The notes under the pieces were generated by a model. It did not search any database. It was not told where the DNA came from and worked only from the letters and a program-made list of their open reading frames with translations. A DNA stretch of 64,000 nucleotides, taken from the NCBI GenBank assembly GCA_021413735.1, contig JAIOPV010000250.1, forward strand, positions 1-64,000, read 5' to 3'. The translations under genes and the position numbers were made by a program. Positions 31,001 to 34,000 of the stretch are shown here, in pieces (position 1 is the first letter of the stretch; each line of letters starts with the position of its first letter). Source of the DNA: Planctomycetota bacterium. Lineage in GTDB: Bacteria > Planctomycetota > Planctomycetia > Gemmatales > Gemmataceae.

Positions 31001-34000
31001 ACAGAAGGCGGCCAGAGAGGCAAAGTTGAAGGATCTCCTGGCGAATGACAAGAAAGATGACGGCTTGGTGTTCGATGACTTAGGCGTCGATCACGTAATG
31101 GTTGATGAGTGCTTCACCCACGATACGCTGGTTGAAACAGACCAGGGGCCACTCAAGATAGGCGACATAGTAAATAACCGAATGCAGGTCAAAGTAAAGA
31201 CTTTCGGCTTTTCAAGTAATGTTGTAGAGTGGAAGCCGGTTGTAAATTGGTTTCCGAACAAGAGGAAGGGGCGGCTGCTAGAAGTATTTCATGAGTCGGG
31301 ATCGTTCATATGTACCCATCAGCACAAGCTTTGGATTGCAGGAAAGGGGTACAGGAAGGCCGGGGAGATTAAGCCGGGAGAGGAACTGCTCGTACTGCGG
31401 TGCGGCATTTATTCCGAGCGACACCCGCGCCGGGCCGAAACCGAAGCACTGCTCGCCTCAATGTCGCCAAGCATCCCGAATCGTCACGAAGGTCTGCGAG
31501 TATTGCGAGAAGGAGTACCGATTCGAGACGGAGGGGCGGGCGCACGACGCTCGCAGGCGTTATTGCTGCCTGACGTGCAAGATGGCGGTTCAGTGGGACA
31601 AGCCGGGCATCAAGGAATCGTGGCGAAAGTCGATGCAGCACGTCTGGGAAAACGCTCCGATGAAAGGACGGAAAAATCCTGGTGCGTCGGCCTGGCACGC
31701 GAAGCACAGCCCGATGCGGAATCCCGCATCCAGGGAGAAAATGACACGCACGCTCAAGGAGCGAGGAATCAAGCCTCCGGGGATGTGCGGAAACGGCTTC
31801 CCGCCTCCGGTTCCGCAGGCGCTTCTGGCCGAGAAGACGGGAATGCTGCTGGAGCATGTCATCCCAACGGGACCAATCCGATACCTCATCGAGCGGTTGC
31901 CGAACCACTACAAGGCCGATCTGGCCGATCCGTCCCGGATGCTGGTTGTGGAAGTGGATGGGAAGTCGCATGTGGGCGACATGGGGCGGTTTCTGGACGC
32001 GAAGAAGGACAGGGCCTTATCGCTTCTCGGGTGGTCCGTGTTGAGGTTCTCGAACCAGGAAGTGATGGAGAATACCGACTCGGTGGTCGAACGCATCAGG
32101 TCGTTTACGACATCGAGGTAGCTGACAACCACAATTACTTCGCCAACGGCGCGCTAGTCTCGAACTGCCACTACTTCAAAAATCTCGAAACCCCGACGAA
32201 GATGGACCGGGTCGCGGGCATCCAGACCGGCGGCAGCGAGCGCGCATTCGACCTCTACATGAAGTGCCGCTACCTGGATGAGCAGCACGCCGGGCACGGC
32301 GTCACGTTCGCGACCGGCACACCCATCAGCAACTCGCTGGTCGAACTCTATACGATGCAACGGTTCCTCGATCCTGCCGGGTTACGAGATCGCGGAATCG
32401 AGCACTTCGACGCCTGGGCCGCTACCTTCGGTGAGGTGGTCGAGTCGATGGAGATTTCGCCCGACGGGAAGACGCTCAAGCCCCGCGCTCGGTTCTCGAA
32501 GTTCGTCAACCTTCCCGAACTTCAGCAGATGTTCCGGGCATTCTCTGACGTGCAGACGGCGGAGATGCTGAACCTACCCACCCCGAAACTCGAAGGCGGA
32601 AAGCCCCAAGTCGTCGCCTGTGAGATGTCTGACGAGCAGTGTGAAATTCAGCAGAAATTGGTCGAGAGGTACGAGCGGATCAGGAATGGTGGGGTCGATC
32701 CTCGCGAAGATAACGCGCTTGCAATCACCACCGACGGCCGCAAACTTGCGCTCGACGCCCGGATGCTCTCACCCTCGGCTCCAGACTTCCCCGGCTCGAA
32801 GATCAACGCGATGGTCGAGAATGTCGTCGCCATCTGGAAACGGACCGCGCCGACGAAGGGTACGCAGATGATCTTCTGCGACATGGGCGTGAATCCTACA
32901 GCCTGGGGATTCTCGGCCTACGAGGAGGCGACCCGCAAGCTGATCGAACAGGGGATACCGCGTGACCAGATCGCAGTCATGGGTGAAGCTGATTCAGACG
33001 CGAAGAAGCAGGCCCTGTTCGAGAAGGTCCGCAACGGCACGATCCGGGTGCTGATCGGCTCCACGTCGAAGATGGGTACGGGGACGAACGTGCAGAAGCG
33101 ACTGGTGGCGATGCACCACCTCGATGCGCCGTGGAAGCCGGCGGAGGTCGAGCAGCGTGACGGTCGCATCCTTCGCCAGGGGAATCAGAACGCTGAGGTT
33201 TCGATCTACCGCTACGTCACCGAAGGAAGCTTCGACGCGTATATGTGGCAGGCACTCGAAACAAAGGCGAAGTTCATCGGCCAGATCATGACCGGAGAAT
33301 CCGGCGTTCGCCAGGCCGAGGACGTCGGCGGCCAGGAGTTGAGCTACGCGGAAGTCAAGGCGATCGCGTCGGGGAACCCGGCCGTGCTGGTGCTGGCGGA
33401 AGCGGATGCCGAACTTCAACGGCTCGGTGTGCTTCGCCGGAACCACGCCGACGAGCAGTACCTCGCGCGAAAGAACCTCCGCGAACTCCCCCAGGCGATC
33501 GAGCGGATGGATCAGCGTCTTGCCGCACTGGAGTCGGATGCAAAGACCGTCAATGGCGGAGATGCCGGCACGCTCACCGTGAACAACCGGTCGATCGCAC
33601 CGCAAGACCCCGCATTCGCGAACGCTCTGAGCCGCATCCCCGAACAGGTTGAGTACCGCCGCCGCTTTCCGTTGGGTAGGTACTCCGGCTTGGCATTCGG
33701 GATCGAGAAGCACTCAGGTGGATCCGCAGACGTTTACCTCGACGGGGAAACATCCCGGCACACAATGCTCTCCCGCGAATCACAGGGACCCCGAGCAGTC
33801 TTGAACGCCCTCGGGCGGATCGTGGATACCTACGGAGAGTTGATCGACAACGTGCGGAAGGACCGGGAGCTGGCAGAGCGGCAACTCGGTGATTACCAAC
33901 TGCGGTTGGGCAAGCCATTCCTCCACGCAGCGTACATCGACGAACTCACGGCTCTCCGCGATCGGTTGAAGGTGTCCCTCTCCGGCACGCCGGCAGAAGG

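Follow-up and report, generated by a model that had tools for sequence, protein, structure and literature searches.

The stretch of DNA considered here (the window: all 64,000 nucleotides (nt) from position 1 to 64,000 of contig JAIOPV010000250.1, Planctomycetota bacterium, assembly GCA_021413735.1) contains a long gene for a DarB-like methylase-helicase, whose reading frame passes without a stop through a complete intein, while the +1 frame of the same DNA encodes a putative zinc-finger nuclease of the DUF559/EDxHD type. The features of the locus are the following (slashes mark the splice junctions).

27873-34247, + strand: DarB-like methylase-helicase open reading frame (ORF), 2124 amino acids (aa), one unbroken frame through the intein
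27873-31109, + strand: N-extein, DarB-like antirestriction methyltransferase and helicase up to the VDE of the DEAH (Walker B) motif (phrog_10089, 2.4e-279; 27873 is the start codon listed by the ORF finder)
31110-32165, + strand: intein, 352 aa, inserted in the Walker B motif as VDE/C...N/CHYFKN, stop-free in the host frame
31110-31400, + strand: N-terminal splicing domain, intein residues 1-97, with Cys1 and the TxxH of block B (TIGR01445, 1.2e-7)
31281-31284, + strand: GAAG, resembling a weak Shine-Dalgarno sequence, 6 nt ahead of the ATG of the nuclease (by comparison with the related loci L118, L039, L044 and L120)
31291-32121, + strand: ORF of the nuclease (276 aa, +1 frame), which combines two zinc fingers of Cys4 type with a catalytic DUF559/EDxHD domain (Pfam DUF559, 5e-13)
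31401-32009, + strand: host-frame linker, intein residues 98-300, the antiphase reading of the nuclease, predicted to be disordered
31903-32103, + strand: DUF559 catalytic domain of the nuclease (Pfam PF04480, 5.1e-13)
32010-32165, + strand: C-terminal splicing domain, intein residues 301-352, with the strand VVRVEVLEP, block F (VYDIEVADNHNYF) and the terminal Ser-Asn (TIGR01443, 2.6e-6)
32028-32055, + strand: doubly constrained core, where nuclease GWSVLRFSN (32029-32055) overlaps C-intein RVVRVEVLE (32028-32054), both frames conserved in 80 loci
32166-34247, + strand: C-extein, the remaining helicase, with the +1 Cys as its first residue (CHYFKN...; phrog_10089, 7.7e-166)

An initial annotation, made from the letters of the sequence, had proposed that the host ORF is continuous through a complete intein placed within the DEAH motif. 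This is confirmed by the single ORF, by the splicing blocks, and by the NCBIfam models intein_Nterm (TIGR01445) and intein_Cterm (TIGR01443), which match opposite ends of the element; the Pfam family Intein_splicing covers residues 15-352 (1.5e-6, under its gathering score). Block A starts at Cys 31110, and this Cys1 is invariant across the aligned intein family; block B (GSFICTHQHKLWI) contains THQH, a version of TxxH whose His is likewise invariant; block F/G (VYDIEVADNHNYFANGALVSN) ends in the invariant Asn and is followed by the +1 residue, Cys 32166. These residues are those of a class 1 intein. In the AlphaFold2 model of the frame-0 intein, built with 32 family sequences, the predicted local distance difference test (pLDDT) values are about 84-98 per block for residues 1-97 and 85-97 for residues 301-352, and the splicing domain matches solved HINT domains, with the DnaX mini-intein (7cfv, 1.5e-7) as the best match and RecA, NrdJ-1 and gp41-1 as further ones (Foldseek). 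The residues in between (98-300) receive a pLDDT of about 43, mostly 38-51, and are predicted to be disordered. The description of frame 0 between the blocks as low-information sequence can be refined: it is low in information because it encodes a disordered linker, whose main constraint is to stay open.

The nuclease frame has its ATG at 31291 and its TAG stop at 32119-32121, within block F. The suggestion that it encodes two zinc fingers and a Vsr/DUF559-like core agrees both with the DUF559 match and with the predicted fold: the AlphaFold2 model (mean pLDDT 92) identified only two convincing structures in the PDB, NGO0050 (3hrl) and the catalytic domain of I-Bth0305I (3r3p), with probability 1.00 and a modest E of 0.014-0.015 (Foldseek). 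The catalytic residues found invariant in an alignment of 54 family sequences are encoded at E 31951, D 31957, H 31969 and D 31996. By these sequence criteria the protein is a candidate endonuclease, which would cleave the intein-free allele at its target.

Viral contigs and bacterial genomes were searched with alignments of the nuclease; this yielded 199 loci after simple de-duplication (by exact containment in the first set and by shared 6-mers in the second). The nuclease sits within an intein in 197 of them and is free-standing in the other two (L321 and L331). As in the window, the endonuclease domain of every intein locus (197/197) is out of frame with the splicing domain and lies in the +1 frame, and the host frame is stop-free in all but one (196/197). 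The family occurs in phages and in many bacterial phyla, where it interrupts DarB-like helicases, SNF2 helicases, phage DEAD/DEAH helicases, the clamp loader DnaX and terminases, nearly always in the Walker B motif (DE/C...N/C). No in-frame fusion of intein and nuclease was found among the nuclease hits, those outside inteins being ordinary DUF559 proteins or free-standing relatives; a single-protein genome search and a plasmid search gave DUF559-domain relatives only. In the phage records examined, the helicase frame is the only one annotated as a coding sequence (CDS) under the matches. With the related locus L039 the window shares 35% identity in the extein, but 53% in one splicing half and 76% in the other. 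In four loci (L123, L124, L230 and L309) the nuclease frame carries an internal stop and the host frame is open; probably their nucleases have decayed while the inteins still splice, translation from a downstream start being the alternative. The free-standing relative in L321 (2914-5182) lies directly upstream of an intein-free DEAH helicase and overlaps its start by 35 nt, and could possibly be a homing gene beside its target.

The openness of the host frame was compared with the number of stops expected after permuting the synonymous codons of each nuclease, a check proposed in the initial annotation. Over 195 intein loci a single host-frame stop is seen, compared with 1790 expected; these loci share ancestry and are not independent trials, but at such divergence their silent sites are far from shared. 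The window nuclease alone has 0 stops against 5.6 expected (P=0.0015), and when the codon usage of the host gene is applied, 6.8 stops are expected and none of the 500 draws is stop-free. The third frame, used as a control, contains as many stops as expected or somewhat more (1223 seen and 1125 expected, and 2022 seen and 1862 expected), and the two free-standing relatives, a second control, also show the expected stops (29 seen and 29.4 expected, and 9 seen and 10.2 expected). Openness by chance due to a high guanine-cytosine (GC) content was considered and ruled out: the loci span a GC of about 0.3 to 0.65, and the host frame is open down to about 0.3, with some 9 stops expected per locus. 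The host frame is held open by selection. In 152 of 192 loci (P 1.6e-20) the linker is also more hydrophilic than the synonymous shuffles predict, though not in the window (z -0.16); this suggests weak selection on the solubility of the linker on top of the avoidance of stops.

Both frames are constrained in the core at 32028-32055, where in the family the nuclease motif G-W-x-V-L-R-F-S/T-N stands in antiphase to the host motif R-V-x-x-V-E-V/I-L-E. Among nuclease positions with a fixed amino acid, codon usage in the core departs from that elsewhere in the nuclease: the Gly codon is GGG in 89% (34% elsewhere, P 3e-24), the Arg codon is AGR in 74% (35% elsewhere, P 2.5e-12), the Val codon is GTG or GTA in 96% (70% elsewhere, P 1.5e-8), and the Leu codon ends in G in 80% (47% elsewhere, P 1.8e-8). 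The silent bases of the nuclease core are chosen to suit the C-intein. The impression that both frames are functional near 32030-32121 is thus upheld by the conservation of both frames in 80 loci and by the codon bias. Since GWxVLRFSN and RVxxVEVLE share their bases, the invariant +1 phase would also find a simple explanation.

Purifying selection on the nuclease frame is evident from the sequences of two Vibrio phages, 1.088.O and 1.194.O, whose inteins are 95.8% identical within flanks of 77.2% and 75.7% identity; this contrast is also indirect support for a nuclease that would cut the intein-free allele. In the 783-nt dual-coded part, 32 of the 36 differences fall on third positions of nuclease codons; 31 of the 36 leave the nuclease protein unchanged, and as many (31 of 36) alter the host frame. 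Outside the overlap, the differences silent in the host frame are 4 of 6 before it and 3 of 3 after it. The related phages 1.251.O and 141E35-1 have an empty site at the position of the Vibrio intein, and Vibrio phage K461 (L415, CDS from locus 523) carries, at the same helicase site, a mini-intein of about 150 aa lacking the homing endonuclease. For the host gene of the window, the search for intein-free homologues with joined exteins, also proposed earlier, revealed more than 40 uninterrupted homologous places in related genomes, most of them 70-85% identical; this number includes three paralogues in its own genome. The intein-free homologues aligned (L164-L175) have Ala, Leu, Phe or Val where the window (32166-32168) has the Cys of DECH; the +1 Cys probably arrived with the intein. 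Sequence comparison shows that the DNA is dual-coded, that both products are under purifying selection, that the element has spread horizontally, and that empty and mini-intein alleles exist.

How the nuclease would be translated can be judged from the region upstream of the zinc fingers. A start codon is present in the open stretch of the nuclease frame in 190 of 193 loci. In 145 of the 193, an ATG lies at most 12 codons upstream of the zinc finger (P 1e-30; the control windows have one in 33%). A Shine-Dalgarno core accompanies this ATG in 79 of the 145 loci, against 6.6% for random N-intein positions (P 9e-45). In the clade of the window the start falls within the codons for 'EVFHE', with GAGG or AAGG ahead of it (L118, L039, L044 and L120). 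The nuclease is probably translated by internal initiation. The constant +1 phase, the opening of the nuclease frame near the end of the N-intein, and the window itself, with no ATG near the zinc finger, would also fit a programmed frameshift from the host frame into +1 after the N-intein, giving a fusion of N-extein, N-intein and nuclease. We consider this unlikely, given the nearly universal start codon and the extreme enrichment of ATG and Shine-Dalgarno sequences; moreover, in 28 loci a stop closes the nuclease frame at most 8 codons ahead of the zinc finger, so that a frameshift would have little space in which to occur.

Internal initiation is part of the explanation we regard as very probably correct, i.e. 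that the element is a mobile intein of a distinct and widespread architecture, whose nuclease is a separate protein, overlap-coded in the +1 frame. The host frame encodes a HINT domain in which some 200 residues of predicted disordered linker occupy the place usually taken by the endonuclease, and the endonuclease, with its zinc fingers and EDxHD/DUF559 domain, would be a protein of its own outside the intein polypeptide, made from the +1 frame of the same DNA; it would begin at an internal start in the N-intein coding region and end in block F or, in relatives, as far as the splice junction. We infer that the precursor excises the intein by protein splicing and so restores the helicase, while a minority of ribosomes would start internally and produce the nuclease. 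The nuclease would cleave alleles that lack the intein, close to the codons of Walker B, and repair of the break would copy the whole element. The initial annotation had likewise proposed dual coding in a continuous intein, with a host frame obliged to remain free of stops, and this is strongly supported by the 1 stop in place of 1790, by the free-standing controls, and by the purifying selection on the nuclease frame. Its further suggestion that the arrangement is an intermediate, here taken as one on the way to fractured genes and split inteins, is weakly supported: one relative speaks for it (L042, split right after the N-intein), but the architecture is stable and widespread.

Several observations from the window itself weigh against this explanation. 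The usual penultimate His of the intein, present in most other family members, is replaced by Ser, which is common in the clade of the window. The start of the nuclease is below the family norm (GAAG, and no ATG near the zinc finger), which makes its translation here less certain. Identity between the window nuclease and its closest relatives is only about 49%, too low for measuring selection in its own lineage. Finally, three intein-free DarB-like paralogues, 78-85% identical at the junction, are present in the same genome (contigs C174, C137 and C124) and stay uninvaded despite the resident nuclease gene, so that the window copy may no longer be homing.

A functional split intein splicing in trans, with the nuclease gene between its halves in the manner of fractured genes, had been listed among the alternatives to dual coding. 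It draws some support from the structural proximity of the splicing domain to the split inteins NrdJ-1 and gp41-1, and from L042 (4037-4057), in which the N-intein is directly followed by a host-frame TGA and the C-half opens with an ATG, in frame, 6 nt beyond that stop, so that the halves are separate ORFs; both nuclease and C-intein are intact. This locus looks like a natural split version of the dual-coded intein, albeit a single one on a metagenomic contig, where an error or decay is possible, and its layout implies that one stop would turn a dual-coded intein into a fractured gene. Trans-splicing is not applicable to the window, because its host ORF is unbroken, as are those of 196 of the 197 loci; with stop avoidance far above chance, we give a split intein very little probability here. 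The other alternative named at the outset, a former in-frame endonuclease displaced by an indel, i.e. a decayed or mis-sequenced insertion, would agree with a frame 0 that is predicted to be disordered and unconserved as protein between the blocks. It is excluded by nearly 200 relatives (197 loci) sharing one phase without a single in-frame fusion among them, by the invariant catalytic residues, and by the 31 of 36 changes silent in the nuclease frame of the Vibrio phages; it is refuted for the family, and its probability is negligible. Equally improbable is excision at the RNA level, by a group I or II intron with an endonuclease ORF and an incidentally open frame 0: endonuclease ORFs overlapping their element are common in introns, but no Rfam intron model matches 30500-32800 down to E 1, a complete HINT domain with its splice residues is encoded, and the openness of frame 0 is not incidental.

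The dual-coded intein can be compared with several known systems. With canonical mobile inteins, which carry an in-frame LAGLIDADG or HNH endonuclease, it shares the splicing domain, the insertion site in a conserved nucleotide-binding motif, the homing-type distribution and the position of the insert between the splicing halves; it differs in that the endonuclease is a separate protein in an overlapping frame, outside the intein polypeptide. The fractured genes that Dassa and colleagues reportedly described in 2009 in Nucleic Acids Research (NAR) are said to be split inteins whose two halves flank a free-standing endonuclease of the Vsr-like (EDxHD) type. They have in common with the window a nuclease of a related fold class and its location between the halves of the splicing domain, whereas the host ORF of the window is continuous, splicing would take place in cis, and the nuclease overlaps the host ORF rather than lying between two ORFs; within the family only L042 is split. 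I-Bth0305I, an EDxHD homing endonuclease of a group I intron, has the same fold of the catalytic domain, but it is intron-encoded, only 16% identical in sequence, and equipped with a different DNA-binding part. The only related report found in a literature search concerns the ShiLan element, in which a phage methylase carries an HNH out of frame and the authors found no splicing domain (Genes 2025 16:178, PMC11855218). Both elements interrupt a host gene without introducing a stop, encode a mobility endonuclease in a different frame of that DNA, and show a disjunct distribution. ShiLan, however, has no splicing domain, is thought to remain in the protein, and encodes its HNH nuclease in the 'third frame' (PMC11855218), while the element of the window has a complete HINT intein, an EDxHD/DUF559 nuclease in +1 phase and a splicing domain that is partly dual-coded. 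A preprint on non-canonical actinobacteriophage inteins, cited by the ShiLan authors, may overlap with our findings, so that priority is uncertain; inteins and EDxHD endonucleases are both known, and a description of their overlap-coded combination was not found.

The remaining features of note in the window are these.

19770-21284, - strand: TraG/TraD-like coupling protein
34350-35504, + strand: next gene downstream of the DarB-like one, encoding a DACNK sensor domain and a DisA-like diadenylate cyclase (DAC) domain
35548-36315, - strand: 'Gene product 88' family protein
37577-38248, + strand: ORF similar in appearance to the HNH_3/AP2 ORF below, no Pfam hit
43494-44342, + strand: ORF with HNH_3 and AP2 domains (HNH 3.1e-9, AP2 9.6e-12), the make-up of another homing-type endonuclease

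With the TraG/TraD-like coupling protein and the 'Gene product 88' family protein, the window looks like a part of a conjugative or integrated mobile element.

It is conceivable, although we rate it at somewhat less than an even chance, that the family represents an old and widespread kind of intein not described before, overprinted by the gene of a free-standing EDxHD endonuclease. The +1 phase would then be locked by the bases shared between GWxVLRFSN and RVxxVEVLE, and fractured split inteins could arise from such inteins through a single stop, as L042 suggests. In the textbook view the endonuclease of an intein is a fused domain, and split inteins are usually attributed to gene breakage. 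Here splicing and mobility would belong to two proteins from one stretch of DNA, in which the splicing fold and the most conserved motif of the nuclease partly share their bases. Such an arrangement would explain how a homing enzyme can come apart from its intein polypeptide while the host gene stays whole, and would offer a concrete route to split inteins. Enzymes of this kind are missed by genome annotation, as in the phage records examined, and the clear constraint on both frames makes the family an unusually clean natural system for the study of overlapping genes.
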